Of a stretch of 22,234 bases of DNA, positions 2,274-22,234 are shown piece after piece. The notes below the pieces were generated by a model, which worked only from the letters and a program-made list of their open reading frames with translations, had not been told where the DNA came from and ran no database searches. The position numbers and the translations under genes were made by a program. The stretch comes from a virus. Within the stretch, counting starts at the first letter, position 1. Every line of letters starts with the position of its first letter. Where the stretch lies: positions 1 through 22,234 of the IMG/VR virus record IMGVR_UViG_3300044675_006041; one strand, 5' to 3'.

Positions 2274-2274
2274 A

Positions 2275-2540: not shown

Positions 2541-2561
2541 TCAAACGGAAGGCTCCCCCCT

Positions 2562-2866: not shown

Positions 2867-2887
2867 TCCTTTTCTAACATCTAACAG

Positions 2888-2924
2888 AAACGCCCACGGT
2901 CTAACAGATCGTGGGCGTTTTTTT
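2888..2924 (+). terminator. Strong Rho-independent terminator ending the left gene array
   Basis: CGCCCACGGTCT (2891-2902) pairs with AGATCGTGGGCG (2906-2917) around an AAC loop. Flanking A/T bases can lengthen the stem to about 15 bp, and seven T follow (2918-2924). The core is the same as the 574-598 hairpin. Confidence 0.92.
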
Positions 2925-2925
2925 G

Positions 2926-3163: not shown

Positions 3164-4558
3164 TTAAAGTGTAAGACCATCGGTATCAATCGTTTTGATA
3201 TATTTTTTATATCTCCGATTGGGTAGAGGTCGTTCTCCTTGGGTTCCCATTAATTTTAATATAGCTTTTTTATGGTTTGAAGGGAGCTTGAGAAATTCCT
3301 CCACTCCCGTTGCCCATAACTCATCATTATTTGACATTCCATAAGAATCTACCCACTTTACCAGATCTTTCATCTGTTCCCTAAATGGAGATTGTTCCTT
3401 TCCTGCAAGGTTATCTCCTGATTGGGGGAAGTTTTTTTGATTTATAGTAATTTCAAAGATATTGAATACGAAATTGATTATAAGGACAACAATACCCAAT
3501 CTATGAGTATCTAATTCATCAAATTTATTACTAACTTCCGTATAAGAATCATCATTAGCGAATATAAAATTCTCGTTATGTTTTGTTTCACTTAATAGAT
3601 AATCAGAAATGGATTCAAATTCTGATACCCAATCTTCTCCATCTTCCTTCGCCCAATTCCAATCACTCTCATCCGCTTCCACTGAACGTTTTATATTCTT
3701 TATTAGATTGTCATAAAATAACTTTGTCAGGGCATTGCTTAGATAATTAAGTTGTTTATTATAAATTCCCATATCAACATGCCAAAATTGTGATTTGTTT
3801 TGCATGTCATTAATTATTTTTAATATTAATTTTCTGGTTTTACTTTTGAAGTTGTCTCTCCAGACTTTAAAAAATTCTTGGTCATTTATTTTCCATGGGG
3901 AACCGTCTTCATCATACTTGTTGGAAACATAACTTTGATAGATATTTCTGACTGTATACATCATATCTTTAACAACTTCGTTCCAAATTAAACTGTTATA
4001 ACCACTGCCCAATAATTCTTCTGTTTTTTCAAAATTAGTATACTTATAAATATTTTTGAATGGTTCCTTTTCCTTCTGTTTTTGAGCGGTGGAGAAATTT
4101 GTTTTGTATTGGTTTAATAGAGTATTGTAGTATTCGCTGACAGCTCTTTTAAATCCTTCGGAATTGTTGAACATCCATAGGTGCGCCCATTCATGGACTA
4201 TCACTTTGATTAGATAATTTGGATCATTGATTTGATTTAAGGATACTGTCATGTATTTTCCTTTGCGATGAGCATAACCCCCAACTCCTCCCCCCGATAC
4301 CCAATTCACTTCCTCTGACAAATCCTTGATCAATATGTTGGAATGCATGGAAGGGAAACCCATCTTGGTGATTATCTTTCTTGCTTCCGTGCAAGCGTTC
4401 GTTATTTTTTCTTTCAATTCATTTATGCTCTCTACTTTATCTACATCATCTTTGAAAAGATAAACAGAGAACATAGGTAATTTTGTTATGGGGATTACCT
4501 TTTTTGATTGGGAGAATTTTGCTTCTCTTATTAAAAAGTATTCGTGGAAAGATATCAT
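3164..4558 (-). CDS. Zinc metallopeptidase-like protein (464 aa) with candidate capsid-targeting N-terminus
   Basis: A HEWAH motif (H122, E123, H126) in the context LIKVIVHEWAHLWMF is the classic HExxH zinc-binding and catalytic signature. It is preceded by a Gly-rich strand (GGGVGGYAH, about 89-97) and followed by a long helical region. The third ligand is not certain; EEF in GVEEFLKL near the C-terminus is one candidate. The N-terminus MISFHEYFLIREAKF resembles T4 capsid-targeting sequences and contains IRE|A, a good match to the T4 gp21 prohead-protease site. No signal peptide or membrane segment is seen. The start is fixed by a TAAATA box five bases upstream. Protease activity is likely; packaging in the head and the target are inferred. 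Confidence 0.72.
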   Translation of the reverse strand: MISFHEYFLIREAKFSQSKKVIPITKLPMFSVYLFKDDVDKVESINELKEKITNACTEARKIITKMGFPSMHSNILIKDLSEEVNWVSGGGVGGYAHRKGKYMTVSLNQINDPNYLIKVIVHEWAHLWMFNNSEGFKRAVSEYYNTLLNQYKTNFSTAQKQKEKEPFKNIYKYTNFEKTEELLGSGYNSLIWNEVVKDMMYTVRNIYQSYVSNKYDEDGSPWKINDQEFFKVWRDNFKSKTRKLILKIINDMQNKSQFWHVDMGIYNKQLNYLSNALTKLFYDNLIKNIKRSVEADESDWNWAKEDGEDWVSEFESISDYLLSETKHNENFIFANDDSYTEVSNKFDELDTHRLGIVVLIINFVFNIFEITINQKNFPQSGDNLAGKEQSPFREQMKDLVKWVDSYGMSNNDELWATGVEEFLKLPSNHKKAILKLMGTQGERPLPNRRYKKYIKTIDTDGLTL

Positions 4559-4563
4559 CCTAT

Positions 4564-4569
4564 TATTTA
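4564..4569 (-). promoter_or_regulatory. TAAATA late-promoter-like box, 5 nt before the 4558 ATG
   Basis: TAAATA-ATAGG-ATG on the minus strand. The box fills most of the 12-base gap to the upstream gene's stop at 4571. Confidence 0.65.
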
Positions 4570-4570
4570 A

Positions 4571-5425
4571 TCACATAATGGACATTGTTCCCATGTGCTT
4601 ACCGATCATGACATTGAACATTTCATCTAAAGCCCATTTGAATTGATTAATATATTCCCAAGCTTCATCTTCATCTTGTAATCTGTAATTACGTGCTGTT
4701 GATTTACCCCATGCTTGTTTGTTACTGTCTTGTAGAATTTTTGGCGGGTCATTGAAAGTCAATTCTCCATCATGTAGTAACCAATAGGCAAATGCTTCGT
4801 GATAGAATTCTGCGGGTCTTACGAGCTTACCCATTCTTGCGCTACGGAACTTACCGATCTTTTGGAAGAAGTCTCTTACATAATAATCAGATGAATAGCG
4901 TAAGTCTCTGGAATTACTTGTGTTTATATTGTAAGCTTGTTCAAAAAGATTTTTTAGGATGTTTGATATGTTTCTATTAATATAATTTAAATCATTATTT
5001 CTCCTAAATGTTGCTGCGAAGCTATGTCCAATTCTATGGGCAATTGTCCATGGAGTCAGAGGGACTTTTTCTGCTGCTGCATTATTGGTGAAGAATACTG
5101 TGATTTGGTCGTTCTCTGGTTGGGGGAAATCTTTACCTACTTCCAGACCCAGATGTTCTTTTACAAATTCGGGAGTCACTAGACCTTTTTCTGCTTCTTT
5201 CCATGCTCCCGCTTTTTTTACGAAATATAAATTAAAATCCCAATTACCAATGCGATTGAAAGTATTTTCCAATTTCTTCAGTCCTGCGGGAGAAGATAGG
5301 ATACCAATTGATGCTTTATCATAACCATGACGATTCTTTTTGTCTTCCCACTTTCCAATCTTTTGTAGATTGGTCAAAGCCATTTCTTGGTAGATTTGTT
5401 GTAGGGAAAGTTCGTCTTGGTTCAT
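4571..5425 (-). CDS. HRIGH metallopeptidase-like protein (284 aa), possibly inactive, with capsid-targeting-like N-terminus
   Basis: Residues 125-134 read PWTIAHRIGH: the two zinc-binding histidines (H130, H134) are spaced as in HExxH, but the catalytic Glu is Arg. A later PAEFYHEAFAYWL (about 204-216) offers E206, H209 and E210 as further metal ligands. I recall similar TPW-IAHR-GH motifs in hypothetical proteins of T4-like phages, so the Arg may be a family trait and not a lesion. The N-terminus, MNQDELSLQQIYQEMA, shares IY.E with the proteins starting at 5525, 9862 and 14534. The start is set by a TAAATA box. Function is unknown: a non-peptidase metal-binding protein or an inactive peptidase are both possible. 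Confidence 0.68.
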   Translation of the reverse strand: MNQDELSLQQIYQEMALTNLQKIGKWEDKKNRHGYDKASIGILSSPAGLKKLENTFNRIGNWDFNLYFVKKAGAWKEAEKGLVTPEFVKEHLGLEVGKDFPQPENDQITVFFTNNAAAEKVPLTPWTIAHRIGHSFAATFRRNNDLNYINRNISNILKNLFEQAYNINTSNSRDLRYSSDYYVRDFFQKIGKFRSARMGKLVRPAEFYHEAFAYWLLHDGELTFNDPPKILQDSNKQAWGKSTARNYRLQDEDEAWEYINQFKWALDEMFNVMIGKHMGTMSIM

Positions 5426-5430
5426 TCTAT

Positions 5431-5436
5431 TATTTA
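5431..5436 (-). promoter_or_regulatory. TAAATA late-promoter-like box, 5 nt before the 5425 ATG
   Basis: TAAATA-ATAGA-ATG on the minus strand. It is divergent from the box at 5514-5519; the roughly 100 bases between them hold no gene. Confidence 0.65.
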
Positions 5437-5513
5437 ATCATAATTGGAATATATCGTTTCGGTGGTTGCCCCTCAAAAATTTTTTTCAAAAGAAATATTT
5501 AACTTTATTATAT

Positions 5514-5519
5514 TAAATA
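5514..5519 (+). promoter_or_regulatory. TAAATA late-promoter-like box, 5 nt before the 5525 ATG
   Basis: TAAATA-TTATC-ATG. The position excludes the longer in-frame start at 5444, which would place the box inside the coding sequence. Confidence 0.65.
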
Positions 5520-5524
5520 TTATC

Positions 5525-6169
5525 ATGAACAAAGATCGTATCATATTGGAGAATATTTACATGGAAATGGCATATGGTTTTGCAGAAGGATCAATACCTA
5601 TGGATATTAAAGGTATGATGGACTTTGTAATTAAGGCAGATAAAGAGAAACCAAACACCACAATCCCTTTTAGCTTTACCGCAGTTACCACACCAAGAAA
5701 ATATGAAAAACAATTCCCTCACCAACAATTATATAAAATCACTCAAACGATTGGAGAATTGGGGGAATACCAAAAAGAAGTTAATAGACAATTAACTAAA
5801 AGGGGTGATGAAGGGGATTTTGAAGCACAGTCAAGTAATACTGTAGGAGAAAGACTCTCCCGTAGTGTGGGGATTTCTAAGAGAGGATTATCTTTAATCA
5901 TGTTTAATTCTAATCTAATTAAGAATAACGTAACGTTTTATGTCATTCGAGATAATCAGGGAAACTTAAAAGAAATTGATAAGGAAGAAGCCAAACAATA
6001 TATGTATCCATCTTCAGGTGGTAAATTTGAAACTGATGTGAAATGGAGAACTTATGGATTTGATAAGATGGTTGGTTTAAGAGTTAATAAACAGGAAATG
6101 ATTAATACTGAAATAGACGATGATAAAATGGAAGTGTTCGATTTCATTGGTCACAAGCTAAGAGCTTAA
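5525..6169 (+). CDS. Unknown protein (214 aa) with capsid-targeting-like N-terminus
   Basis: Starts MNKDRIILENIYMEMAYGFA; the IY.E core matches the 284-aa protein divergently encoded next to it. A candidate processing site is FAE|G at residues 20-23. The body is soluble and mixed, with VGERLSRSVGISKRGLSL in the middle and a C-terminal region rich in charged residues. No known domain is recognised. An in-frame upstream Met at 5444 is rejected because the conserved TAAATA box lies between it and 5525. It is followed, after a short gap, by the gene with the ADP-ribosyltransferase-like pattern. Confidence 0.7.
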   Translation: MNKDRIILENIYMEMAYGFAEGSIPMDIKGMMDFVIKADKEKPNTTIPFSFTAVTTPRKYEKQFPHQQLYKITQTIGELGEYQKEVNRQLTKRGDEGDFEAQSSNTVGERLSRSVGISKRGLSLIMFNSNLIKNNVTFYVIRDNQGNLKEIDKEEAKQYMYPSSGGKFETDVKWRTYGFDKMVGLRVNKQEMINTEIDDDKMEVFDFIGHKLRA

Positions 6170-6245
6170 AATATTAATCACATTATGGATATTTCTCCAT
6201 ATGTTCCACCATGGTATGAAATATTTCCTTCCCCTGTCAATAGAT

Positions 6246-6251
6246 TAAATA
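6246..6251 (+). promoter_or_regulatory. TAAATA late-promoter-like box, 5 nt before the 6257 ATG
   Basis: TAAATA-TTTTT-ATG. It lies inside the longer reading frame that opens at 6185 and argues for initiation at 6257. Confidence 0.6.
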
Positions 6252-6256
6252 TTTTT

Positions 6257-6730
6257 ATGAGAACTTTTCTAGAATCTTTCTATGATATCCAAGAGCTATC
6301 TCCGAATAGTAAGCTACGAGATATCTCGAATACTCACTATCTTAAAGTGTATCGTTCTTCGGCTCGTCCCAATAAGAACGACTATACTTCAGGTTCTCAT
6401 GCGGGAACTAAGCAACAAGCTCTGATTCGTGCTGATTATATGATCAATGACGAAGGGAGATTCGACAAGTATTATCTTTATGAATTAACTATTAGAATTG
6501 ATAAAGTGTATCCCAAGTTACTACCTGATGATGGAACAGATCATGGATATGATTATGTAAAAGATTTGGGTGATTATGATATTGCTTTCTACAAAAATAC
6601 AGGAGAAGGTGATATCAGAAATGAGAATCTTTCCATTATCATCATCAATCCTGACAGTGTGGTTGAATCTAAGATGGTTGAAGAGATCGATGGGGAGTAT
6701 TTAACTACTATTCAGGACGAATTATATTAA
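6257..6730 (+). CDS. ADP-ribosyltransferase-like protein (157 aa) with capsid-targeting N-terminus
   Basis: From the 6257 start the chain opens MRTFLESFYDIQELSPNS, an F..(S)F-type leader. The frame extends up to 6185, but that start lacks the TAAATA box and would bury the leader. The body fits the layout of the ART-like domains found in phage proteins: HYLKVYRSS, then SGSHAGTKQQALIRADYM, a strand YLYELTIRIDKV, then DYDIAFYKNTGEGDI and SIIIINPDSV. This matches the recurrent pattern H.GT..AA..R / Y.Y.l.i / .D.I.Y.N..EG...S.I...P..I. The match is by eye; the catalytic Glu cannot be assigned with confidence. In T4, the head-packaged enzyme Alt has this activity on host RNA polymerase, which makes the combination notable. 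Confidence 0.5.
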   Translation: MRTFLESFYDIQELSPNSKLRDISNTHYLKVYRSSARPNKNDYTSGSHAGTKQQALIRADYMINDEGRFDKYYLYELTIRIDKVYPKLLPDDGTDHGYDYVKDLGDYDIAFYKNTGEGDIRNENLSIIIINPDSVVESKMVEEIDGEYLTTIQDELY

Positions 6731-6733
6731 GTA
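6728..6733 (+). promoter_or_regulatory. TAAGTA late-promoter-like box, 5 nt before the 6739 ATG
   Basis: TAAGTA-TTATA-ATG. It is the only box of the set with a mismatch to TAAATA. Its TAA is also the stop codon of the preceding gene. Confidence 0.5.
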
Positions 6734-6738
6734 TTATA

Positions 6739-8157
6739 ATGCGTAGCTTTAATAAATTGTATAAGGAATTGATGGAGAGTGTCATTTGGCAACCAAAAGT
6801 CACTATTCCTTTAGGTATAAAGAGAGATGACAAAGACAGTGGTTTCAAAGATGACAATCCTCTTATAAAAGCATTCGCATTATCAAATCCAGATAATTTA
6901 GCGATGGTATTCGCCTTTGTATTTTATACTATGCAAACACCTTGGGCAGAAGTGTTACATGGTTTCCCAAAATTTATTGAGTGGTTTTATACGAAAGCAG
7001 TTGTGAGAAAGGGGAATCGATTAGTGGTTAATAGAAATGTGGAACCACCATCGTTTCTGGGTCATCAAATGACTGGTAAGCATAAAGAAACTGGATTATC
7101 GACTCAAAGATTATCACAATTTTATGATGTTTATGATAACAGACAAACCATTTATGAAAATGTTGTCAAAAGAATAGACGATGTTTTTGAACTTTTCGAC
7201 TACGTTACAACCATAAAAGGTTTAGCAAAAGCTAAAGCTGCTTTTGTAGTGCAACTGATAAGTGGTGATTTAGGATGTTTCGATAGTATTAATGTCAAAT
7301 CATATGATGTCACTGGATTAAATATGGCTAGTCCCGCCAGAGATAAGCATGGTAAATTGACCAAAGGTGGTAGGAAAAATTTAGAATCATATATTGAATA
7401 TAGTAGTCCAATGTCACAAATTTTGTGGGACGATTGGTGTAAAATTGTTGAGCATAAATTTTTATATGCTGGCAAGTTTTCTAAAGAAGAAAAAGCGAGA
7501 GACGAGCATAAAGTAATAGCAACTAAAAAAGGAGATAATATCAAATATCAAACAGCATACGCACCAAATAAAAGAACCAAAGATAGATTGGAAGATTATA
7601 CCAATAAGAGATTGAAAGGTTCTAAAATGGATGGAAGAAATGTTAGTAAAGATCACTACACCATTTTTAAAGATATAGAACCCTTCATCAAAAAAGAATC
7701 ATTCGATCAACAATATGAAATGTTAATGAAGGAATACGTAGAAGACTTTGATCAGAAATGGGATAAAGCTGTTGAGCAGATCATCGAAAGCGTTGGAGGA
7801 TACATACCAAGTATGATGACCAAACAACAACGACAAGTGATTGTAGATTCAATCAAAAATAAAACATTATCCAGAAAAGATACAATTCAAGCATTGACAA
7901 AGATCAATCCATCTGATATGATGGCGATCACGGAAAAATTAGATACCAACACTTTGAAATATTTGGCGGGGATGACTGATAAAAGTAGAACAGAAACTCT
8001 TTCTTTTCTCAGAAGAGGTATTAATAAAATAAAAGACAATATGCATTCATCTACAAATAAATCACCTATGACTGATGATGTCATGATCAGAAAACCAGTA
8101 GATATAACCGCAAGAAAAGTTGTGGTAGATCCTTACACCGAATCATTTAATCATTAA
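6739..8157 (+). CDS. Helix-hairpin-helix-like protein (472 aa) with capsid-targeting N-terminus
   Basis: The N-terminus MRSFNKLYKELMESVIW carries an F..LY.E leader with a candidate LME|S cleavage site. Residues about 156-190 (VTTIKGLAKAKAAFV, then VQLISGDLGCFDSINVKSY) match the helix-hairpin-helix pattern I-GL--KAAFV-QL-G--GC-D--N---Y seen in DNA glycosylases and, from memory, in hypothetical proteins of marine T4-like phages. The rest is highly charged; residues 245-310 are rich in Lys, Arg and Asp, and the C-terminus is Thr/Lys-rich. DNA binding is plausible; catalytic residues of a glycosylase were not identified. A DNA-condensing or DNA-associated internal head protein would fit the context. 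Confidence 0.65.
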   Translation: MRSFNKLYKELMESVIWQPKVTIPLGIKRDDKDSGFKDDNPLIKAFALSNPDNLAMVFAFVFYTMQTPWAEVLHGFPKFIEWFYTKAVVRKGNRLVVNRNVEPPSFLGHQMTGKHKETGLSTQRLSQFYDVYDNRQTIYENVVKRIDDVFELFDYVTTIKGLAKAKAAFVVQLISGDLGCFDSINVKSYDVTGLNMASPARDKHGKLTKGGRKNLESYIEYSSPMSQILWDDWCKIVEHKFLYAGKFSKEEKARDEHKVIATKKGDNIKYQTAYAPNKRTKDRLEDYTNKRLKGSKMDGRNVSKDHYTIFKDIEPFIKKESFDQQYEMLMKEYVEDFDQKWDKAVEQIIESVGGYIPSMMTKQQRQVIVDSIKNKTLSRKDTIQALTKINPSDMMAITEKLDTNTLKYLAGMTDKSRTETLSFLRRGINKIKDNMHSSTNKSPMTDDVMIRKPVDITARKVVVDPYTESFNH

Positions 8158-8166
8158 AATAATAAT

Positions 8167-8391
8167 TTAATCTTTGTGCTGTTTCTCCATCTTGGAGTAA
8201 TATTTTGGATCTTCTTCCACATGCTGTTTAGCAATCGTTTTCGCCAACTTCTTTCCTAACTTTGTTTTTCTCTTGGAAGGAGCAATATGTTCTTGTTCTA
8301 CTTCTTCTCCTTTGGAAACCTCTGGTTTAGGAAGATCTTTTTTTTCAACTTTCTTGAAGTAGTCATTAAAGAAATCTTGGAATTTTTTCAT
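8167..8391 (-). CDS. Small lysine-rich protein (74 aa), candidate internal head protein
   Basis: Starts MKKFQDFFNDYFKKVEKKD, an F..FF leader like those at 9167 and 11709, with KVE|K as a weak processing site. The remainder is dominated by Lys and Glu (SKRKTKLGKKLAKTIAKQ) with no hydrophobic core, so it is probably disordered or helical. Small size, basic character and an N-terminal leader are the profile of T4 internal proteins. It is convergent with the 472-aa gene, separated by only nine bases. The start follows a TAAATA box. Confidence 0.7.
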   Translation of the reverse strand: MKKFQDFFNDYFKKVEKKDLPKPEVSKGEEVEQEHIAPSKRKTKLGKKLAKTIAKQHVEEDPKYYSKMEKQHKD

Positions 8392-8396
8392 AGTAT

Positions 8397-8402
8397 TATT
8401 TA
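8397..8402 (-). promoter_or_regulatory. TAAATA late-promoter-like box, 5 nt before the 8391 ATG
   Basis: TAAATA-ATACT-ATG on the minus strand, filling the 11-base gap below the 254-aa gene. Confidence 0.65.
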
Positions 8403-9167
8403 TTATCTAATTAAATTAATCAATTTTGCAACTTGATCACTGACATATGGTTGGAAATCTTTTGGTGATCCAAATCCTGCTCTCAAATCTAAAGTATCTT
8501 TTGACACTTTCATTTTATTAAGTTTAGAATAAAGATTTCCCGTGTTGTGTTCCAAGTCCATCAACTTGTCAAATGAACCCATTAGAGCGGATACTTTTTC
8601 TCTGCGGATGGCATTGTCTAATTCTTTCACTGCTTGAGTGATTTCAGCCCATTTTTTACCACCATATAAATTAGCATTTTTTTCCCAAAAAGGAGCAGAC
8701 ATAATACTAGTAGTATCGTTATAATCAAAAACATCAAACCATATACCACCTTTTCCTTCGTTGTGTGCTTTTGCTAATTTTGGGAGGAGGTTATTCTCTT
8801 TAAACCATGTAACTACTTCTTTTGAAGGTATTAAATATTCATCGAAAATATTTTCTGCTTCATCAGCAATCGCTTCTTTAGATTCCTGTAGAAGAGTATT
8901 TGCTATAACTACCAATGCTTCTTCAAAATATCGATCAACTTTTTCTCTTACTTTATAATTACGAACATTGGTATCTTCGTAATTGTATGCTGATTTGCCA
9001 CCCCCCAATTCCCACCATAGAGCATATAGCGCATACAAATCCATGATAGCTTTATCACCAGAGGATGGGTAAACATATTGAGCTTCTAAAAGAATTTTTC
9101 TTCTTTTATTTACAGGAGGTAATTCCCCATTTGCGAATCTTTCAAAAAAAGTTTTAAAGTTATTCAT
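8403..9167 (-). CDS. Unknown protein (254 aa) with capsid-targeting N-terminus
   Basis: Starts MNNFKTFFERFANGELPP; the F..FFE leader is followed by ILLE|A at about residues 26-29, a strong phi-x-E|A candidate. The body is mainly helical, with LYALYALWWELGGG near 45-58, AHNEGKGGIWFDVFDY in the middle and LMDLEHNTGNLYSKLNKM near residue 208. I recall LEHNTG-type motifs in hypothetical proteins of other T4-like phages, without a known function. The ATG overlaps the stop of the upstream gene (ATGA, 9164-9167), so translation is likely coupled; there is no TAAATA box. Confidence 0.7.
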   Translation of the reverse strand: MNNFKTFFERFANGELPPVNKRRKILLEAQYVYPSSGDKAIMDLYALYALWWELGGGKSAYNYEDTNVRNYKVREKVDRYFEEALVVIANTLLQESKEAIADEAENIFDEYLIPSKEVVTWFKENNLLPKLAKAHNEGKGGIWFDVFDYNDTTSIMSAPFWEKNANLYGGKKWAEITQAVKELDNAIRREKVSALMGSFDKLMDLEHNTGNLYSKLNKMKVSKDTLDLRAGFGSPKDFQPYVSDQVAKLINLIR

Positions 9168-9862
9168 TTTAAGTTATCTACAATTTTTTGAATCTCTTTC
9201 AGTAATAGATATCGACTTCTTTTGCCATTAATGGTTTTAGGTTGTCCAACTTCTTCAAATACAAAATCACGTTCTTTTTCAAATGCAAAATCACGTCCTT
9301 TAACTTTGGATAGGAACGGACCTGAATGTTTACCGAATTTTCCTTCACCAACGGTTTGTTTAACATCTAAACCAGGATATGCGTCTTCTCCATCGGAAGT
9401 TCCCCATAAATAAACACCTATTCCACCCGCTGGAATGATTAAGACTGAATCTTGATTAAAAGCTTTACCCATTTTATATAAATCTTTCGCCAGTTCCCCA
9501 TCATCATCGCCTTCTACTTTGTCATTGACTACGAAAAACGAACGCTCATTAACATGTTTTTCAACTGGATTATAAGCATCACCACCACCTTTTCTAGCTA
9601 GAATTTCCTCACGCTTATCATCATCGATAAAATCTTCGATAAATGTTCCCAATACTGTGGTAATGGAATATCTTTTCGATTGGAGATATGCTAATATTTT
9701 TTTATTGTTGAGCATATTTTCTTTGTATGATTTATCATTCCTAAATGCTGTAACAATTCCAGCAGCATGTTTCTGAATTTTATTACGAACTCTATTTAAT
9801 CCACTTTCTTGTAGTAAGTCAGTGTAAATATCTCCAATTTCATTATTGTCTTTATTTTTCAT
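9164..9862 (-). CDS. Unknown protein (232 aa) with IY.(D/E) leader
   Basis: The ATG at 9862 gives MKNKDNNEIGDIYTDLLQES; a TTG nine bases upstream would add three residues but is less likely. The leader core IYTDLLQE|SG resembles the 105-aa protein at 14534 (IYTDLILE) and contains LQE|S. The middle has VLIIPAGGIGVYLWGTSDGE, a beta-rich Gly segment, then GKFGKHSGPFLSKVKGRDF. No family is recognised. Upstream lies a 44-bp degenerate copy of the 3' end of the 94-aa gene. The start context is GAATAATATG rather than the full box. Confidence 0.67.
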   Translation of the reverse strand: MKNKDNNEIGDIYTDLLQESGLNRVRNKIQKHAAGIVTAFRNDKSYKENMLNNKKILAYLQSKRYSITTVLGTFIEDFIDDDKREEILARKGGGDAYNPVEKHVNERSFFVVNDKVEGDDDGELAKDLYKMGKAFNQDSVLIIPAGGIGVYLWGTSDGEDAYPGLDVKQTVGEGKFGKHSGPFLSKVKGRDFAFEKERDFVFEEVGQPKTINGKRSRYLLLKEIQKIVDNLK

Positions 9863-9869
9863 ATTATTC

Positions 9870-9913
9870 AAATTTCTTCTATTGCTTTAAATTTCTAGAT
9901 TGAAAATTACAAT
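9870..9913 (-). repeat. Remnant duplicate of the 3' end of the 94-aa gene
   Basis: These 44 bases match 10827-10892 except for two substitutions and a 22-base deletion bounded by AAATTT on both sides. They lie in the gap upstream of the 232-aa gene and do not code in the same frame here. Confidence 0.85.
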
Positions 9914-9917
9914 TTAA

Positions 9918-10820
9918 CTAATCATCGACACTCTCACTTAATTTTTTACGATATCCATATTCAGCAGCAGAAGGATACCCTCCCGTAACCTGTTTCAAGT
10001 CCGATGGATCAAATCCTCTAAATTCCCATACAATTTTCTTTTCATATGGTGTCATATTAAATCCAGTATGCGCTCTCATTAGAATATCAACAATCTCATC
10101 GTGTGACAATTCGGGATAGATTTTACTTTTGAGTTCTTTAGTCTCACCAGATTCGCTCTCTCTATAATTGTCACCAAAATAATTGAACTGACTTGAATCA
10201 GTTGCAGACCAGAAAAAATCACCCAATTTAAAATATTTATTCAAACTTTTTAAATCATCTGGTTTCAATTGACGTTCTCTACACCAAAAAACAATTACAT
10301 TGACATTTTTTTTCAATGTTTTAGATGCGACCGAAAACCATATTCTACCCGCTCTGGTATTCCGTCTAGTGTCTGTTGTCATTCCTGATTTCTGTTTCTT
10401 TGCAAAAAATTCCAAGTTTGACATGTCAAATTTACCCAAGAAAGACACATCATCGTCTTTAAGAATCTTTTTAACATCTTTAATTGTAGTATCTGAATAC
10501 ATTGATTGCAGATAACTCATCATTGCTGGAAAAGGTATAATTTTTAAAGCTGCTGCTAACTTAGTAAAAGCAGAAAATATATACGGATGTGTACCTTCAT
10601 TGTGGTTTATTGTTCCAATCAATTCTGAATTTTCCCCAATAAAACAAAATGGTCTGGTGTTGTCGTCAAAATTTTTAACAATACCATCAAATTCGAGTTT
10701 ATCAGGACTACTTCTAGTGACTGGTATTTTTACGTTTTCCGATAAAACAATTCCTCTTGCTGCTGCACGTTTTTCCAGAATTTTATTATATAATTCTCTT
10801 ATGTTTAATTCATCACTCAT
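9918..10820 (-). CDS. Unknown protein (300 aa) with LY leader
   Basis: Starts MSDELNIRELYNKILEKRAA; the leader core is I..LY..IL, with VLSE|N at about residues 25-28 as a possible cleavage site. Notable segments are LIGTINHNEGTHPYIFSAF (about 66-84), RNTRAGRIWFSVASKTLKK and VNVIVFWCRERQLKPDD (a beta-alpha unit). HNEG is shared with the 254-aa protein. No enzyme family is recognised. The ATG overlaps the end of the 94-aa gene by eight bases, so translation is probably coupled. The downstream gap carries the duplicated fragment. Confidence 0.67.
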   Translation of the reverse strand: MSDELNIRELYNKILEKRAAARGIVLSENVKIPVTRSSPDKLEFDGIVKNFDDNTRPFCFIGENSELIGTINHNEGTHPYIFSAFTKLAAALKIIPFPAMMSYLQSMYSDTTIKDVKKILKDDDVSFLGKFDMSNLEFFAKKQKSGMTTDTRRNTRAGRIWFSVASKTLKKNVNVIVFWCRERQLKPDDLKSLNKYFKLGDFFWSATDSSQFNYFGDNYRESESGETKELKSKIYPELSHDEIVDILMRAHTGFNMTPYEKKIVWEFRGFDPSDLKQVTGGYPSAAEYGYRKKLSESVDD

Positions 10821-11097
10821 AATTCCAAATATCTTCTATTGTTTTAAATTTTTTTATTAATAATTCCAAATTTCTAGATTGAAAATTACAATCAATCATA
10901 GTCTTTACAGTATGCATACAGGACTTATATGACGATTCGTAATTCAAATCAGCCATTTTAGGCTCGTGTTCAACAATCATCAATACTGTATCATACATTC
11001 CTGATGGATGGGGAATCGGATCGCATGTAAAAATAACTTCCACTCCATCACTATTTGGAGCATTGATCATATATTCTTTGGGATAAATTACTATCAT
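10813..11097 (-). CDS. Small protein of unknown function (94 aa)
   Basis: Starts MIVIYPKEYMINAPNSDG, ending TIEDIWNYE. It has no capsid-targeting-like leader, unlike its neighbours. Residues 1-50 look beta-rich (VEVIFTCDP, YDTVLMIVEHEP) and the C-terminal half helical. The start abuts the stop of the GNAT-like gene and its own end overlaps the 300-aa gene, so it is probably translated as part of a coupled series. Its 3' end exists a second time, damaged, at 9870-9913. Confidence 0.65.
   Translation of the reverse strand: MIVIYPKEYMINAPNSDGVEVIFTCDPIPHPSGMYDTVLMIVEHEPKMADLNYESSYKSCMHTVKTMIDCNFQSRNLELLIKKFKTIEDIWNYE
10827..10892 (-). repeat. Intact parent segment of the duplicated gene end
   Basis: Codes for the C-terminal residues CNFQSRNLELLIKKFKTIED of the 94-aa protein. 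The 22 bases from 10849 to 10870 are absent from the 9870-9913 copy. Confidence 0.85.
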
Positions 11098-11709
11098 TTA
11101 TTTTAATTTCATATAGACTACCACTGTTTTAGCATTTCTGTCGATGTTGTCATCGTCGTCAAGAGAATAGGAAATACCATTGAACACTGGATAAGGCATT
11201 GTATCATCGTTTTTATCTTTGTCAATAACAAAACCATTTCGACTGTAGAGTTTGTAGAGTCCCTTAGACTCAATACCGCCATTACCATCTTGTTCCGCAA
11301 AACAATCTAAACGTCTAGCACCATTTTTAATAGCACTTTTAACAAGAGCATCTCCTGATGGTTCTTCAGATGAGAATACGGAAACTAATTCGTCACCACC
11401 TTTGATACAATATCCACTTGTATTATTTGGACCAACAAAACATTCCATCTCAGCATATTTTTTAGGCTCGTAAATAGTGATATTATCTTTAATACCTTTA
11501 AACATTCTATGTTTTGGATGATCTGGATCAGCACGTTTATCGTCTGATTTCATATAACCATTAATGATTTTATAAAAATTTCTCCAATCGACAGGTTTAA
11601 ATTTTTCAGAATCTTCAGGATTCAACCTACGACCAATTTTTAATTGCTCAGGTGATAATTTACCAATGTCTGAGAATGCTTCCCAAAAAAATTTATAGAA
11701 TGACTGCAT
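11098..11709 (-). CDS. GNAT acetyltransferase-like protein (203 aa) with capsid-targeting N-terminus
   Basis: Starts MQSFYKFFWEAFSDIG, with FFWE|A at residues 7-11 as leader and candidate cleavage site. The domain matches a GNAT-like pattern known from many phage and bacterial proteins: YEPKKYAEMECFVGPNNTSG, then YCIKGGDELVSVFSS, GDALVKSAIKNGARRLDCF, GLYKLYSRNGF and a C-terminal TVVVYMKLK. The helix with G-A-RLDCF and the LY--GF strand are the recognisable core. The acetyl-CoA pyrophosphate loop is not a textbook Q/RxxGxG/A, so activity is uncertain. The start is set by a TAAATA box; it is the first gene of a coupled minus-strand run. Confidence 0.6.
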   Translation of the reverse strand: MQSFYKFFWEAFSDIGKLSPEQLKIGRRLNPEDSEKFKPVDWRNFYKIINGYMKSDDKRADPDHPKHRMFKGIKDNITIYEPKKYAEMECFVGPNNTSGYCIKGGDELVSVFSSEEPSGDALVKSAIKNGARRLDCFAEQDGNGGIESKGLYKLYSRNGFVIDKDKNDDTMPYPVFNGISYSLDDDDNIDRNAKTVVVYMKLK

Positions 11710-11714
11710 TCTAT

Positions 11715-11720
11715 TATTTA
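11715..11720 (-). promoter_or_regulatory. TAAATA late-promoter-like box, 5 nt before the 11709 ATG
   Basis: TAAATA-ATAGA-ATG on the minus strand, the same 14 bases as at the 5425 start. It overlaps the 3' end of the 93-aa gene. Confidence 0.65.
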
Positions 11721-11999
11721 ATCATTCCCCAAATATTTGTCAATCACCATGGTGAAATAATCAGCAAACCAACAAATGGAAGATGCGTAGAATCCCCATA
11801 GGGGAATCAAGAATGGTGTGCCTGTCCAAAACATTCCAAAGAAACATCCCACCCAAAATCCGAGACACATACAACACTTAAACAATTTCTCAAAGAATTT
11901 CATTTTAATCAAACGATCTCGAATAGGATTTAGAATTGATCCGTATTTCAGGATCAGACAAGCACCAATCAATACAAAAGATTGAAACCAAAGACTCAT
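11718..11999 (-). CDS. Small integral membrane protein (93 aa), DUF1360-like
   Basis: Hydrophobic segments at about 3-20 (LWFQSFVLIGACLILKYG), 44-60 (CLGFWVGCFFGMFWTG) and 65-82 (LIPLWGFYASSICWFADY) predict two or three membrane passes. LFKCCMCLGFWVG resembles the C--C-GFW-G motif of DUF1360 proteins. Its place beside lysis genes makes a holin-like role possible, but this is inference. The ATG overlaps the upstream stop (ATGA). Confidence 0.6.
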   Translation of the reverse strand: MSLWFQSFVLIGACLILKYGSILNPIRDRLIKMKFFEKLFKCCMCLGFWVGCFFGMFWTGTPFLIPLWGFYASSICWFADYFTMVIDKYLGND

Positions 12000-12193
12000 C
12001 CTAGAATAAGTTTTTGATTATCAATCGTTTTTACACCATCGGAAATCAGGAGTGCTTCTTCTTTTCTCACAATAATTTTGTTACCAAAATCATCAGTGAT
12101 TTCTACCATGCCGTCTGTGAGTTCTGTAACTACTGGGCAACTTTTTCCTTTGCAGCACAATTTAACACTATTATTTGTCAATACTTTGATCAT
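11996..12193 (-). CDS. Small conserved-looking phage protein (65 aa)
   Basis: MIKVLTNNSVKLCCKGKSCP, then VVTELTDGMVEITDDFGNKI and a C-terminal DNQKLILG. The CC-KGK-CPV motif gives three cysteines that could bind metal or form a disulfide. From memory, similar LC-KGKGCPV short proteins occur in other T4-like phages, with no known function. It has a TAAATA box seven bases before the ATG, two more than the usual spacing. It overlaps the membrane-protein gene. Confidence 0.62.
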   Translation of the reverse strand: MIKVLTNNSVKLCCKGKSCPVVTELTDGMVEITDDFGNKIIVRKEEALLISDGVKTIDNQKLILG

Positions 12194-12200
12194 ACTAAAT

Positions 12201-12206
12201 TATTTA
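12201..12206 (-). promoter_or_regulatory. TAAATA box, 7 nt before the 12193 ATG
   Basis: TAAATA-ATTTAGT-ATG on the minus strand. The spacing exception would give a two-base leader if transcription starts at the T4 late-promoter distance. Confidence 0.45.
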
Positions 12207-12608
12207 TCCGAATATTCGAGAAATCAATGATTTTTTATCTTTCAAATTATAAACAAATACTTTCAATCCTTTATTTTTAGAATAATCAATCATGTGTTTA
12301 GTGCCTCTCGATTCCCCATCCCATATTGCAACAAGAGCATCTGCATAGTCACCCATTTCCTCATTCCTGCGTAGTCCTGCCGATTTTCCAAATTTCTTCC
12401 AATTAGCTGGGAATTCTTTAATAAAAATATTATTTTGATTTGCCCATTGTTCCCCAAGAGTATCTACGCCACGAGCTTTACCTGATACCACCTCAGTTAT
12501 TTCAGATAACCAAGGACACTCTTCCATCGCTGAAAGAACATCCCGATATTCTATATTACTTCGACTTCCTGCGATTATCGTTTTCATCTTCGATTGTAAA
12601 GATATCAT
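12204..12608 (-). CDS. DUF2493/SLOG-family nucleotide-binding protein (134 aa)
   Basis: The pattern MKTIIAGSRSN (inner Met, residue 8), EVVSGKARGVDTLGEQWA, FPANWKKFGKSAGLRRNEEM and ADALVAIWDGESRGTKHMID fits DUF2493, a Rossmann-like member of the SLOG superfamily related to DprA and LOG proteins. GSR and SG-ARGVD are the ligand-binding loops. Such proteins bind nucleotides or nucleotide signals; the substrate is unknown. The first ATG (MISLQSK) overlaps the upstream stop (ATGA), favouring coupled initiation there, but the inner Met fits the family start better. Confidence 0.8.
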   Translation of the reverse strand: MISLQSKMKTIIAGSRSNIEYRDVLSAMEECPWLSEITEVVSGKARGVDTLGEQWANQNNIFIKEFPANWKKFGKSAGLRRNEEMGDYADALVAIWDGESRGTKHMIDYSKNKGLKVFVYNLKDKKSLISRIFG

Positions 12609-12994
12609 CGACTTTTATTTTTCTCCACAATAACTTTCATAAACATTGGAAAATTCTTGATTCGTTGTTGCGCGATTTTTTTAGAAGCACAAAAAACATC
12701 GATCACAATATTATTTTTACCAATTTTTTTAGAAGCAGTTCTAGCTTTCACTGCACTACCAGTATCAATTGCTGTAGCAGTTATACCCATTTGAGGAATA
12801 ATTACTTTACTACCATAAGGAATAATTTTTGGATCAACTGCTACGGTTTTTCCACAGATCGCTTTTTTACCAGTAGAAGTTTGTGATCCAACTTGACCAC
12901 CATTTCCTGACCAATAATAAGTGACTCTAGCAGTGTATTCTTCAGAATTACCACATAACATCATAAACAATAATATACAAGATATTTTCAACAT
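12605..12994 (-). CDS. Secreted 3D-domain protein (129 aa), likely cell-wall hydrolase
   Basis: An N-terminal hydrophobic segment (LKISCILLFMMLCG, residues 2-15) is a signal peptide; Cys14 might be lipidated, but the preceding residues fit a lipobox poorly. The remainder is a 3D domain, named for three conserved aspartates: VAVDP (D54), AIDTGSAV (D77) and VIDVF (D99), with IIPYGSKVII between the first two. This domain is the catalytic double-psi barrel of MltA-type lytic transglycosylases and Rpf/YabE-like proteins. It is divergent from the DUF1353 and endolysin genes, forming a lysis cluster. Precise bond specificity is not readable from sequence. Confidence 0.8.
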   Translation of the reverse strand: MLKISCILLFMMLCGNSEEYTARVTYYWSGNGGQVGSQTSTGKKAICGKTVAVDPKIIPYGSKVIIPQMGITATAIDTGSAVKARTASKKIGKNNIVIDVFCASKKIAQQRIKNFPMFMKVIVEKNKSR

Positions 12995-13000
12995 GTTTCC

Positions 13001-13028
13001 AATTTAGCATATTTTTTTCATTTGTCAA
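13001..13028 (-). promoter_or_regulatory. Sigma70-like promoter for the 3D-domain gene
   Basis: TTGACA (13028-13023) and TAAATT (13006-13001) on the minus strand with a 16-base spacer. The predicted transcription start is at or next to the ATG at 12994, so this mRNA too may have little or no leader. Confidence 0.45.
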
Positions 13029-13032
13029 GTAC

Positions 13033-13038
13033 TAAATA
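13033..13038 (+). promoter_or_regulatory. TAAATA late-promoter-like box, 5 nt before the 13044 ATG
   Basis: TAAATA-ATAAT-ATG. The 14 bases are identical to those at 13446 and at 20877 (minus strand). Confidence 0.65.
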
Positions 13039-13043
13039 ATAAT

Positions 13044-13448
13044 ATGAGTGAATTAAATAAAAATGTTTTTCCCGATACCATTAAATTGGAAGATTTGGGT
13101 ATTGTCAAAGGAACGAGAAAATTTCGTCTTTTGGCAGATTTTCGTTGTTATTACAAAGGTAAATTAATTACCGTTCCCAAAGGATTTATTACTGATGGTA
13201 TATCAGCACCCAAATTTTCATGGGCTATTATCGGACCTTATGGACCTGCTTTCCCTGCCGCTCTAGTCCATGATTGGTTATTTTCACCATTTAATACTGA
13301 ATATGATTGGAAAACGTCAAATTGGATGTTTCTCGAATTGATGAAAGAAGCTGGAGTTGGATTCACCATGAGATGGACTATCTATTCTGCTGTGGTTGCT
13401 GGTTCTTATCCTATATGGAAAAAAAGAATTAAAAATTACGGACACTAA
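13044..13448 (+). CDS. DUF1353 phage protein (134 aa)
   Basis: Residues about 47-80 (VPKGFITDGISAP, IIGPYGPAFPAALVHDWLF) match DUF1353: the conserved FVTD-AS-P, PG/Y--A-v-HD-L pattern, with H77 and D78. The C-terminal part (MKEAGVGFTMRWTIYSAV) agrees with the family's GV---R--mY-AV. DUF1353 proteins are common in phages, often near endolysins; their activity is not established to my knowledge. It lies eight bases upstream of the amidase gene on the same strand. Confidence 0.82.
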   Translation: MSELNKNVFPDTIKLEDLGIVKGTRKFRLLADFRCYYKGKLITVPKGFITDGISAPKFSWAIIGPYGPAFPAALVHDWLFSPFNTEYDWKTSNWMFLELMKEAGVGFTMRWTIYSAVVAGSYPIWKKRIKNYGH

Positions 13449-13451
13449 ATA
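13446..13451 (+). promoter_or_regulatory. TAAATA late-promoter-like box, 5 nt before the 13457 ATG
   Basis: TAAATA-ATAAT-ATG; its TAA is also the stop of the DUF1353 gene. Confidence 0.65.
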
Positions 13452-13456
13452 ATAAT

Positions 13457-14032
13457 ATGAAAGTTTTGGAAGATCATTGGGTAGACACTGCAAAAAGAGT
13501 TCCATTGGAAGGTGGGAGTAAAATGAGCGTTCGTAGATTTCTTATCCAACATTTTACAAGTGGTGCAACTGGAATGTCCTCAATTAATTTTTGGAAAACA
13601 CCAGATGCTAAAGGGGCATCAGCACATTTCGTAATTGATAGAGACGGCACATTATATCAATGTCGTCCTTGCAATCTTACATGTGGACATGCTGGTAAAT
13701 CAAAATGGACTCATGCTGGAAAAACCTATGAAAACTTAAATTCCTGTTCGATTGGTATAGAATATGCTAATGCCGGGGATTCTACGAATTTAATTCGACG
13801 CTATTCTAAATTACCACCTCTTAGAGCCAAACATAAGAATGGTGGTCCAATTTGTGAATGGGAACAATATACTTCAGAACAAATTGCAACTGGTAAAGAA
13901 TTGAGCAATGTTCTAACCAAACGTTATACTCTAGATGCTATTTTAGGACACGAGGACATTGCACCTGATCGCAAAGTTGATCCAGGACCAGCATTCCCCA
14001 TGGAGGAATTTCGTAAATATTGCGGATTTTAA
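13457..14032 (+). CDS. N-acetylmuramoyl-L-alanine amidase, Amidase_2 family (191 aa), endolysin
   Basis: Hydrolyses the bond between MurNAc and L-Ala of peptidoglycan in a zinc-dependent manner. Visible zinc ligands are H32 (LIQHFTSG), H165 and D175 in LGHEDIAPDRKVDPGPAF, with K173 as the usual catalytic Lys. SAHFVIDRDGTLYQ (55-68), TCGHAG (76-80) and SIGIEYAN (98-105) are further family hallmarks. The length is one catalytic domain, with no separate cell-wall binding domain and no signal peptide, so it needs a holin or similar for release. It ends close to the stop of a convergent 53-aa lipoprotein gene. Confidence 0.9.
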   Translation: MKVLEDHWVDTAKRVPLEGGSKMSVRRFLIQHFTSGATGMSSINFWKTPDAKGASAHFVIDRDGTLYQCRPCNLTCGHAGKSKWTHAGKTYENLNSCSIGIEYANAGDSTNLIRRYSKLPPLRAKHKNGGPICEWEQYTSEQIATGKELSNVLTKRYTLDAILGHEDIAPDRKVDPGPAFPMEEFRKYCGF

Positions 14033-14047
14033 ATATGTTTGTGATGG

Positions 14048-14209
14048 TTATTTTCCATCAGAAACCGTTGGTTTTTCAAACTTATACCCGAAAAATACGG
14101 AACCGTCTTCACTTTTACGGAATATGCCATTGGGGGATTCCAATTTAAAAGGAACTCCACAAGAATTAAACAAGAATACACTTACAAATGCTAAAATTAA
14201 TTTTTTCAT
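14048..14209 (-). CDS. Small lipoprotein (53 aa) in the lysis cluster
   Basis: An unannotated-size frame reads MKKLILAFVSVFLFNSCGVP: a charged start, hydrophobic segment and a Cys at residue 17 behind LFNS, a typical lipoprotein signal. The mature part is about 36 residues, ending KPTVSDGK. It begins ten bases downstream of the stop of the 105-aa gene. Phage outer-membrane spanins (o-spanins) are small lipoproteins of this kind beside endolysin genes; no matching inner-membrane partner was identified, so spanin is only a hypothesis. A host-surface-modifying lipoprotein is an alternative. Confidence 0.7.
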   Translation of the reverse strand: MKKLILAFVSVFLFNSCGVPFKLESPNGIFRKSEDGSVFFGYKFEKPTVSDGK

Positions 14210-14216
14210 GACAATA

Positions 14217-14534
14217 TTACTTATTCGATTTATCCAATTTTTCTCTCAATGTTCCAAGTGCTAATCTGACAGCATTATTAATTGGGGAATCTCCGATATA
14301 TTCATCTTCAACATCTTGGATAATTTTTAAAATTCCTCCCAATTCTTCTTCTTGCTCACCATAAACGTGGGAAGTCACCATCGGTGGTGCTATTCCAATT
14401 ATTTGTTTATTGTAAGACAATTTAGTTCCCGCTTCTTGAGGAACTTCTTGCTTTGGCACTCTTTGGGGTGGGTTGAAACCACTTTGATATTCCAAAATCA
14501 AATCAGTATAGATTTGTTGTAAAAATTTATCCAT
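14217..14534 (-). CDS. Unknown protein (105 aa) with IY.(D/E) capsid-targeting-like N-terminus
   Basis: Starts MDKFLQQIYTDLILEYQSGF; the core QQIY is shared exactly with the 284-aa protein (LQQIYQE). ILE|Y is a weak processing site. The region 24-40 is Pro/Gln-rich (NPPQRVPKQEVPQEAG) and probably flexible; the C-terminal 30 residues form a helix (AVRLALGTLREKLDKSNK). No family is recognised. It is divergent from the ClpP-like gene, and its start follows a TAAATA box. Confidence 0.68.
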   Translation of the reverse strand: MDKFLQQIYTDLILEYQSGFNPPQRVPKQEVPQEAGTKLSYNKQIIGIAPPMVTSHVYGEQEEELGGILKIIQDVEDEYIGDSPINNAVRLALGTLREKLDKSNK

Positions 14535-14539: not shown

Positions 14540-14545
14540 TATTTA
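14540..14545 (-). promoter_or_regulatory. TAAATA late-promoter-like box, 5 nt before the 14534 ATG
   Basis: TAAATA-ATATT-ATG on the minus strand, paired with a divergent box at 14570-14575. Confidence 0.65.
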
Positions 14546-21003: not shown

Positions 21004-22234
21004 TTACAGGTAAGTGCTAACAGAACCAGGAGTAAACGCAGTACCAAGACCTTTGACAATGATCAGGTGATAATAAAGATTAGCACCAAAGATGTTATTT
21101 ACAATACCATAACGGGTCATGAGTCCAACGCGAGGAGCGAAATCATTCGGTCCAATTGTGCGTTGCACCATAATCGGGATGTATGGGCAGTAAATAATAC
21201 CTGTGTCATAGTATTCAGAACCTTTGTAACCCAATAGCGCATATTCTACACCACTGGTATAATTACCAGAGTAGTAGTTAGGGCTATAGAGTGAAGTGTT
21301 CTGAACTTCAGTCCGAGTATCACGATAAACCGTCCAGCGGCTACCAACAGTACCAACTTTTGCGATACCAACACCAGCCGTCGAAACGGTTCCGTTGATT
21401 TCGTAAACCTTAAAGTCAGGAAGCATTTCGAGGATGCTGCAAACGCGAGGAGTGGCGATAACAAAGTTAGCGGCACCTCTACGGTTACGAGCAGCCATAC
21501 GACCACTTTCGATAATAAGGCGTTGATAGAAGGTAATATTTCTTTCAGCAGTCCAACGACCATCCGCACTAACAGGACTCCAGATGGAGAAACCTGCGCC
21601 AGCACCAGCATTAAAGGCTGTTTGGATCATACGCATCACAACTTCACGGTCGATTTCAGCTTGGATCTCATACGACATTGCATTCGTAAGTTCTCCATCG
21701 ATATCGATGCCGTTCATGTTTTTGATGTCTTGTTCCAACTCAACACTCCAACGAGTTGCAAGTCTACGTGTCCCAGCTTCAACAGCAGTTTTGTCAAACT
21801 TGAGTTCGATTTGAGGGATTTTACCCGTCAATTCGTAGTTGCTCAAAAGTTCAGCAATACCACGGTCTTGATCTGCGAATGTCCACTCGGCATGACCAGA
21901 GAGGAAACCAGCAGATGTGCCAGTGAAACGTGTGTCCAGAAGTTGATAACCAAGTTCGTCGTTCGGAAGACCAGTGCTACCAGTGTAAGCAGCTTTAAGC
22001 TGATTACCGAAACTGGAGCCAGTTCCACCTTGACTAGCGTATCCGTCGATACCACCATCGCTCAAAGTATCACCTTGGTAGGCATAACGAAGAGCGAAAG
22101 CAAGACCGACAGGTCCGCCCATAGGCTGAACGCCTACGATCTCATTGGAAATCAATTCAGGGAAAGTACGTCTAATCATAGGAATCAGAATCTTTGGAAG
22201 ACGAGCATCACCAGTAGCATAAGCATCGGTATTA
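21004..22234 (-). CDS. Major capsid protein, T4 gp23-like (5' end outside the window)
   Basis: The frame is open to the right edge; residues visible upstream of the first internal Met read NTDAYATGDARLPKILIP, followed by MIRRTFPELISNEIVGVQPM and GGPVGLAFALRYAY. The segment PM-RR-FP-LI--EIVGVQPM-GPVGLAFALR is the hallmark of gp23 (HK97 fold). Further conserved stretches are RWSVELEQDIKNMNGID, YEIQAEIDREVVMRM and near the C-terminus VGLMTRYGI. About 410 residues are visible; the missing N-terminus would hold the leader cleaved by the prohead protease. Codon use is visibly less AT-rich than in the neighbours, as for a highly expressed gene. It is followed by a hairpin. Confidence 0.95.
   Translation of the reverse strand, partial: NTDAYATGDARLPKILIPMIRRTFPELISNEIVGVQPMGGPVGLAFALRYAYQGDTLSDGGIDGYASQGGTGSSFGNQLKAAYTGSTGLPNDELGYQLLDTRFTGTSAGFLSGHAEWTFADQDRGIAELLSNYELTGKIPQIELKFDKTAVEAGTRRLATRWSVELEQDIKNMNGIDIDGELTNAMSYEIQAEIDREVVMRMIQTAFNAGAGAGFSIWSPVSADGRWTAERNITFYQRLIIESGRMAARNRRGAANFVIATPRVCSILEMLPDFKVYEINGTVSTAGVGIAKVGTVGSRWTVYRDTRTEVQNTSLYSPNYYSGNYTSGVEYALLGYKGSEYYDTGIIYCPYIPIMVQRTIGPNDFAPRVGLMTRYGIVNNIFGANLYYHLIIVKGLGTAFTPGSVSTYL

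Follow-up and report, generated by a model that had tools for sequence, protein, structure and literature searches.

Why do eleven proteins encoded on one fragment of viral DNA, and otherwise unrelated, open with N-terminal peptides of the same two types? The question is raised by IMG/VR record IMGVR_UViG_3300044675_006041, of which the whole 22,234-bp stretch was analysed and is called the window here; it encodes a T4-like major capsid protein, gp23. The initial annotation had proposed that the peptides target these proteins to the phage head, from which they are ejected as effectors. The analysis makes it quite likely that the eleven, together with about a dozen more proteins of a near-complete relative, belong to the internal (core) proteins of a T4-like phage head, docked by their leaders, cut by the S77 prohead protease and delivered to the host.

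The leader proteins of the window

All eleven open reading frames (ORFs) are present and their N-termini are as the initial annotation described them. Two classes of leader were distinguished, class A reading M..F4..F7F8.E and class B reading L..(I/L)Y.E. In the list, an arrow denotes the predicted scissile bond and the late element is the sequence TAA[A/G]TA found five nucleotides upstream of the start codon. Genes are named below by the position of their first nucleotide in the window.

3164..4558, minus strand: zincin-like protein of 464 residues with HEWAHLW; leader MISFHEYFLIRE↓A at 4523-4558; late element TAAATA at 4564-4569
4571..5425, minus strand: protein of 284 residues, no family; leader MNQDELSLQQIYQE at 5384-5425, without clear processing site; late element at 5431-5436
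5525..6169, plus strand: protein of 214 residues, no family; leader MNKDRIILENIYMEMAYGFAE↓G at 5525-5587; start fixed by the late element at 5514-5519
6257..6730, plus strand: protein of 157 residues, no family; leader MRTFLESF; internal start fixed by the late element at 6246-6251
6739..8157, plus strand: protein of 472 residues; leader MRSFNKLYKELME↓S at 6739-6777; late element TAAGTA at 6728-6733
8167..8391, minus strand: protein of 74 residues, weak match to DUF5661; leader MKKFQDFFND; late element at 8397-8402
8403..9167, minus strand: protein of 254 residues; leader MNNFKTFF..., site LLE↓A after residue 28; in the gene run behind 11709
9164..9862, minus strand: S-adenosylmethionine (SAM)-lyase-family protein (PF23780); leader MKNKDNNEIGDIYTDLLQE↓S at 9806-9862; in the gene run behind 11709
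9918..10820, minus strand: protein of 300 residues, no family; leader MSDELNIRELYNKILE, possible site VLSE↓N after residue 28; in the run behind 11709
11098..11709, minus strand: protein of 203 residues, phrog_2563; leader MQSFYKFFWE↓A at 11680-11709; late element at 11715-11720
14217..14534, minus strand: protein of 105 residues; leader MDKFLQQIYTDLILE; late element at 14540-14545

The starts at 5525 and 6257 are internal ones, given by the late element and absent from the ORF table. The site φ-x-E↓A/S/G, which had been claimed for many of the proteins, is clear in seven of the eleven, with φ-x-E↓N in an eighth, but is not found in all. The site of 9167 is kept in a relative (MESFKTFYEKF...MLLE↓AQY), and a paralog of 4558, G001_107, has the leader MNEFDKLFEKVLTE↓G.

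The functional labels of the initial annotation held up in part. The metallopeptidase label of 4558 finds weak backing in HEWAH and in SprT/YgjP-like matches (E 0.02-0.06), although these matches are below the cut-off. Two labels given by eye were not confirmed: 6257, called ADP-ribosyltransferase (ART)-like, had no Pfam or NCBIfam match, and 11709, called GNAT-like, matched no GNAT profile, only phrog_2563. AlphaFold models of 6257 and 11709 were unusable (predicted local distance difference test scores of 47 and 36, respectively). A search of the relatives with PF18760 (ART) was empty except for Alishewanella phage Slickus01. PDB sequence searches with three of the candidate cargo proteins gave no match, and no cultured-phage homologs were found of 4558, 5425, 6257, 10820, 11709 or the Kinase-PolyVal protein described below.

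Relatives and a late-promoter-like element

No DNA-level match to the window was found among 50,697 phage records. Its gp23 reaches only about 33-35% identity with the best matches from cultured phages, most of which are cyanophages. When the 472-residue protein at 6739 was used as the query, a 154-kb near-complete contig of nearly the same phage (G001), a 63-kb contig (G002) and more distant relatives were retrieved; G001 and G002 are 98-99% identical to the window across most of the shared part. A ClpP-like neighbour used as the query gave additional relatives of up to 207 kb. Ten related contigs made up the family set of 608 protein families, 104 of which have a member with the late element.

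In G001, 48 copies of TAAATA lie exactly 5 nt 5' of an ATG, compared with 1-10 copies at each of the other spacings from 0 to 20, and the same 5-nt spike is present in four relatives. In the window, TAA[A/G]TA-N5-ATG lies directly upstream of eight of the eleven genes (4558, 5425, 8391, 11709 and 14534 on the minus strand; 5525, 6257 and 6739 on the plus strand). The three genes without it (10820, 9862 and 9167, all on the minus strand) lie downstream of 11709 in one gene run. Further elements in the window are upstream of 20866, 20337, 13044 and 13457. The element marks the presumed scaffold, gp21, sheath and tail genes as well as most leader genes, and does not mark the NrdA/NrdB-like genes of the window. 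Because it resembles the T4 late promoter core, it was used to define a late class and to fix start codons, and the leader genes are thus predicted to be expressed late, together with the head genes. If the element is the -10 region of a T4-type late promoter, late mRNAs would start at or next to the start codon and would be leaderless. No published description of the TAAATA-N5-ATG arrangement was found in the literature searched.

Recurrence of the leaders in late families

The patterns tested were M..[FY]..[FYLIMV][FYI] for class A and [LIVF]..[ILV]Y within the first residues for class B, with starts fixed by the late element and one representative per family; phylogeny was not modelled further. 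The null was obtained from 1000 shuffles of residues 2-25 (2-48 for sites), and the site φ-x-E↓[AGS] was sought between residues 7 and 45. Class A opens 13 of the 104 late families (0.66 expected, shuffle maximum 4) and class B opens 23 (3.54 expected, shuffle maximum 10). Among non-late families class A shows no clear excess (5/539, 2.6 expected), and class B shows none among families that are never late (13/504, 15.1 expected). The site is present in 16 of the 34 late families with a leader (5.7 expected), a count that was reached by none of the 1000 shuffles, and in 11 of the 70 other late families (8.9 expected).

The motif's presence in many replication enzymes, which the initial annotation had named as evidence that would speak against it, was sought as an excess in never-late families and none was found; the one clear false positive, a class A match, is a gp15-like tail sheath stabiliser. 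The catalogue for G001 comprises 27 genes that show a leader pattern and belong to the late class or to late runs; three of them (079, 181 and 189) look false on sight. Signal peptides were rejected as an identity for the leaders, which are charged and have no long hydrophobic stretch.

The possibility was considered that the recurrence is a product of chance and selective reading. The individual motifs are short, and a position-specific scoring matrix trained on the eleven leaders was too diffuse, performed poorly out of sample and was replaced by the anchored patterns; its poor generalisation indicates that the signal sits in few anchored positions. A loose class B pattern without fixed starts was barely above chance. 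Moreover, since the patterns came from the window, families homologous to the eleven are not independent. When these homologs were excluded and starts were left loose, class A gave 7 matches in G001 against 1.7 expected (maximum 6 in 300 shuffles). With fixed starts, the anchored tests lay far above every one of the 1000 shuffles, and families from outside the window showed this as well. Chance is therefore refuted as the source of the recurrence, its probability being close to nil, and the claim that so many similar N-termini are hard to explain by chance was borne out.

It was also considered that the pattern is a by-product of late initiation, either because a promoter that abuts the ATG constrains the first codons or because leaderless mRNAs have a codon preference. 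The late element does lie exactly 5 nt from the ATG of most leader genes. However, the 70 other late families have neither the pattern nor an excess of sites, and genes within runs that have no element of their own carry leaders (9167, 9862, 10820 and G001_131). Furthermore, the Phe codons of class A leaders are a mixture of TTT and TTC, as they are genome-wide, and comparable leaders occur in phages without the N5 element (Slickus01 and Campylobacter phage CP220). The late families without the pattern, the leader genes without the element and the mixed Phe codons largely refute this artefact of the promoter, which is regarded as highly improbable.

A possible third leader type was also seen, with an ...EE↓G(F/L)(L/W)D(R/K) junction near the N-terminus of three late or late-run genes (L012:12864-13625, L016:513-1067 and L012:11509-11757).

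T4 targeting register and the prohead protease

The leader of the T4 internal proteins ipII and ipIII reads MKTYQEFIAE↓A (NC_000866), and mutagenesis of the IPIII leader assigned targeting to residues 4 and 7 and processing to residues 8 and 10 (PMC9026906, a review). The presumed targeting residues of class A, 4 and 7/8, match this register of the T4 capsid-targeting sequence (CTS). In relatives of 11709 the leader reads MKTFYQFFWE↓A, and F4, F7, F8, W9, E10 and A11 are invariant in six sequences. The class B register differs from that of the T4 CTS, and class B is assigned a targeting role by analogy only.

Each of the nine contigs retrieved first carries a single S77 (gp21-type) prohead protease that matches PF03420 above the cut-off, and the eight phages or genomes taken for comparison all have such a match too. 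The window fragment does not reach the protease gene. In G001, the gene before gp23 (132154-133038), presumed without a profile test to encode the scaffold, contains VME↓S, LME↓A, LTE↓S, LSE↓S, MKE↓S and FLE↓G. The propeptide region of G001 gp23 contains LLE↓N and FQE↓S and ends with the latter, and gp21 itself opens MALKLKLIAE↓N. These φ-x-E↓[SAGN] sites in the presumed scaffold, gp23 and gp21 fit the known L/I-x-E rule of T4 gp21 cleavage.

Docking is commonly mediated by short amphipathic peptides at the N-terminus, and the tail sheath stabiliser is among the class A matches; the leaders could bind some other phage or host component, such as the tail, a replication factory or a chaperone, with the φ-x-E↓S sites being incidental. 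This is judged very unlikely: the register and the cleavage motif agree with those of the T4 CTS, leader proteins are the only group with a clear enrichment of sites, and the junction is kept in SAM-lyase relatives from several S77-bearing phages.

21004..22197, minus strand: gp23-like major capsid protein, 5' end outside the window

The nearest gp23 (48%) is found on contig C113 (G017, locus L114), a 375-kb phage contig in a Paludibacteraceae metagenome-assembled genome (MAG) from yak cecum. In C113 a TAG lies inside the S77 protease frame, which suggests TAG recoding. The host of the window phage is guessed to belong to the Bacteroidota, a guess that fits the weak Shine-Dalgarno signals and the nearest gp23 relatives from gut MAGs.

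Exchange of leaders and turnover of leader genes

Leaders are exchanged between unrelated proteins. The leader MISFHEYFLIRE↓A of the zincin-like 4558 shares 10 of 13 residues with MISFSQYFLIKE↓A of G011_241, a protein with a kinase-like glycine loop; the bodies of the two proteins are unrelated, and the DNA of the leaders differs at synonymous codons. The different synonymous codons, together with the mixed Phe codons, indicate selection on the peptide.

The genes themselves come and go. A leader gene that adjoins gp23 in G001 (MQLFNQFFQIHE↓S) is absent at the same site of the window, the two phages being about 98.6% alike. Additionally, the region between NrdA/B and the left-end repeats is made up differently in every relative, each having other leader-bearing genes there. 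Positions 1-3000 of the window, which are rich in repeats and shared in part, carry small plus-strand ORFs that start with MPTTN(T)TMP...

Candidate cargo

Protein 9862 scored 37.6 bits against PF23780 (cut-off 28) and shares with this family the motifs AFR, N, G-x-[YF]-x-E and QD-x-[VI]-L. Its mature form is predicted to begin at S20. Its E106 is invariant in five phage groups and lies in NERSFFVV, as E68 of the T3 enzyme, the proposed catalytic Glu, lies in TEEKTVRV; the two residues (E69 in Svi3-3) were matched by eye, the MAFFT alignment being gapped there. Throughout the five groups an E-[S/K]-x-L-x-R junction is kept behind differing leaders, and the relatives in Slickus01, CP220, Microcystis phage Mel-JY01 and Prevotella phage Lak-A1 read LSE↓SSLSR, FNE↓SSLAR, LGE↓SSLSR and LNE↓KSLNR, respectively. 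One SAM-lyase relative, for example, starts MQFKQYILGE↓SSLSR. S77 was found in all three of these phages that were searched (Slickus01, CP220 and Mel-JY01), Lak-A1 lying outside that search. SAM lyases counter restriction and bacteriophage exclusion (BREX), and a related phage enzyme cleaves SAM-AMP.

Leader proteins of the relatives include Kinase-PolyVal (5e-36), PolyA_pol-HD, PolyA_pol-HD-NUDIX and Zn_protease, and in relative G003 the 6739-type protein is fused to PolyA_pol-HD-NUDIX. A 968-residue fusion of a 6739-type domain with PolyA_pol, HD and NUDIX was seen at L021:6369-9275; the same nucleotidyltransferase (NTase)-HD part stands alone with its own leader in other relatives.

The leaders could instead direct structural or core-building parts to the head, such as scaffold or decoration proteins that stay in it or leave it and are not ejected effectors. 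In T4 the core includes gp22, gp67, gp68 and gp21, which have gp21 sites and are not effectors, and some leader genes of G001 are among small acidic or repetitive late genes (128-132). Such a role is nevertheless ill-suited to enzymatic cargo (SAM lyase, kinase, NTase-HD-NUDIX), to patchy gain and loss in near-identical phages and to the replacement of cargo at the same locus, and it is considered unlikely.

Leaders in other S77 phages

In Slickus01, nine adjacent genes at 86664-93266 (L133:6664-13266) open with variants of MKIxxLYE↓S(L/M/I)LEE↓(G/S). Five of them have paralogous bodies with FHAT/YHST-like starts, and one of the other four is an ART-PolyVal protein (4e-11). At 57251-57745 (L131:17251-17745) the same phage encodes an Acb1-like protein (Pfam Acb1, 1e-30), directed against the cyclic-oligonucleotide-based antiphage signalling system (CBASS), that opens MNITELYE↓ALTSE↓S. 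The Slickus01 protein exceeds T4 Acb1 in length by only about a dozen residues, and any leader that it has is therefore short. In CP220, eight genes open M.[FY]..[FYL][LIFVY] (1.4 expected, maximum 6 in 1000 shuffles). No leader excess was found in cyanophage S-RSM4 or pelagiphage HTVC008M, indicating that a leader battery is not universal among T4-like phages.

Proposed mechanism and its weighing

By analogy with T4, the following course is envisaged for the steps after transcription. The leader proteins would be made late in infection, alongside the head, and the N-terminal leader would bind the core of the prohead while the shell is still open. Cleavage at φ-x-E↓[A/S/G] by the S77 protease would follow, and the leader peptides would exit. 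DNA would be packaged around the mature cargo, which would enter the next host with it. The likely job of the cargo would be instant counter-defence and host modification before phage gene expression, for instance through the SAM lyase, which would deplete SAM; the relatives would contribute kinase, zincin and nucleotidyltransferase/NUDIX activities.

Several observations weigh against packaging and delivery of the whole set. Most cargo families have no known function, and the class B leader has no experimentally mapped precedent. About one third of the window leaders have no clear φ-x-E↓[AGS] (5425, 8391 and 14534, with E↓N in 10820), so some of the proteins may be unprocessed or may not be cargo. 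The site also shows a weak excess in never-late families (99/504, 78 expected). Finally, gel proteomics of CP220 named 11 bands, none of them leader-like, a negative that is weak because only major bands were read; the main texts of the published CP220 and IBB_35 proteomics name no leader protein. On balance, the proteins are probably packaged in the head and ejected, to judge from their sequences. The idea of a head-packaged effector battery, its ART and GNAT labels being unconfirmed, is otherwise favoured by the leaders in CTS register, S77, the sites, the late class, the swappable leaders and the kinds of cargo.

Relation to known systems

The arrangement resembles T4 IPI, IPII and IPIII in its leader of 10-20 residues with aromatic residues at 4 and 7, in φ-x-E↓, in S77 and in the unrelated bodies. 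It differs in that there are about 20-24 candidates per genome, compared with three such proteins and Alt in T4, and in its enzymatic cargo, its second leader class (L..IY.E) and a gp23 so distant from those of cultured phages. T4 Alt, a head-packaged ADP-ribosyltransferase that acts on the host at once, has a leader, MELITELFDE, that resembles class B; however, no Alt homolog was identified here and the cargo is of other kinds.

A second likeness is to polyvalent proteins, which phages and conjugative elements encode (Iyer et al. 2017, PMC5512222). Their protein-acting classes comprise peptidases, kinases, GNATs, ARTs and nucleotidyltransferases. Reports of the Kinase-PolyVal type come mostly from phages that infect Bacteroidetes or Verrucomicrobia-Chlamydia hosts, which the guessed Bacteroidota host would fit. 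Leader proteins include Kinase-PolyVal in the relatives and ART-PolyVal in Slickus01, and the peptidase and nucleotidyltransferase classes are common to both. Unlike the giant multidomain chain of a polyvalent protein, the proteins here are mostly single-domain and each has its own leader; those of the window have at most one recognised domain, the fused G003_079 of a relative being an exception.

The T3 SAMase is made early and is leaderless, whereas 9862 has a leader and an E↓S junction and belongs to a run that begins with a late element. N-terminal signals that load proteins into the head are also found in P1, where such a signal has been shown for one protein, DarB, and in giant phages (phiKZ, SPN3US), which eject many proteins. 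The propeptides of giant phages are mostly longer than 100 residues and their protease belongs to the S80 family; here the leaders are short and the protease is S77.

The initial annotation knew of no description of such a set. None was found for these proteins as far as was searched, but the principle is known from T-even phages, whose diverse internal proteins share only a CTS (PMC3012670). What appears to be new is the scale, the enzymatic single-domain cargo, the second leader type, the SAM lyase as a probable head cargo and the sequence rule.

Implications

If the proposed packaging and delivery are right, the virion would be a loaded multi-effector syringe whose cargo could be read from leader, φ-x-E↓S junction and late promoter. 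Effectors that act before transcription are the hardest to catch by expression timing, so the sequence rule would offer a direct route to their discovery. It would lead to new anti-restriction, anti-CBASS and host-takeover enzymes among uncharacterised phage proteins, and the leaders would supply new short tags with which proteins could be loaded into phage heads.

More tentatively, and with slightly less than even confidence, S77 phages may share a plug-in delivery platform in which swappable import leaders, with class B as a second signal, bring an 'unbundled' polyvalent arsenal of about 20 proteins into each virion. This arsenal would include the SAM lyase and, in Slickus01, the Acb1-like and ART-PolyVal proteins. 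Were this so, scanning for leader and junction would predict injected counter-defence proteins across many phages.

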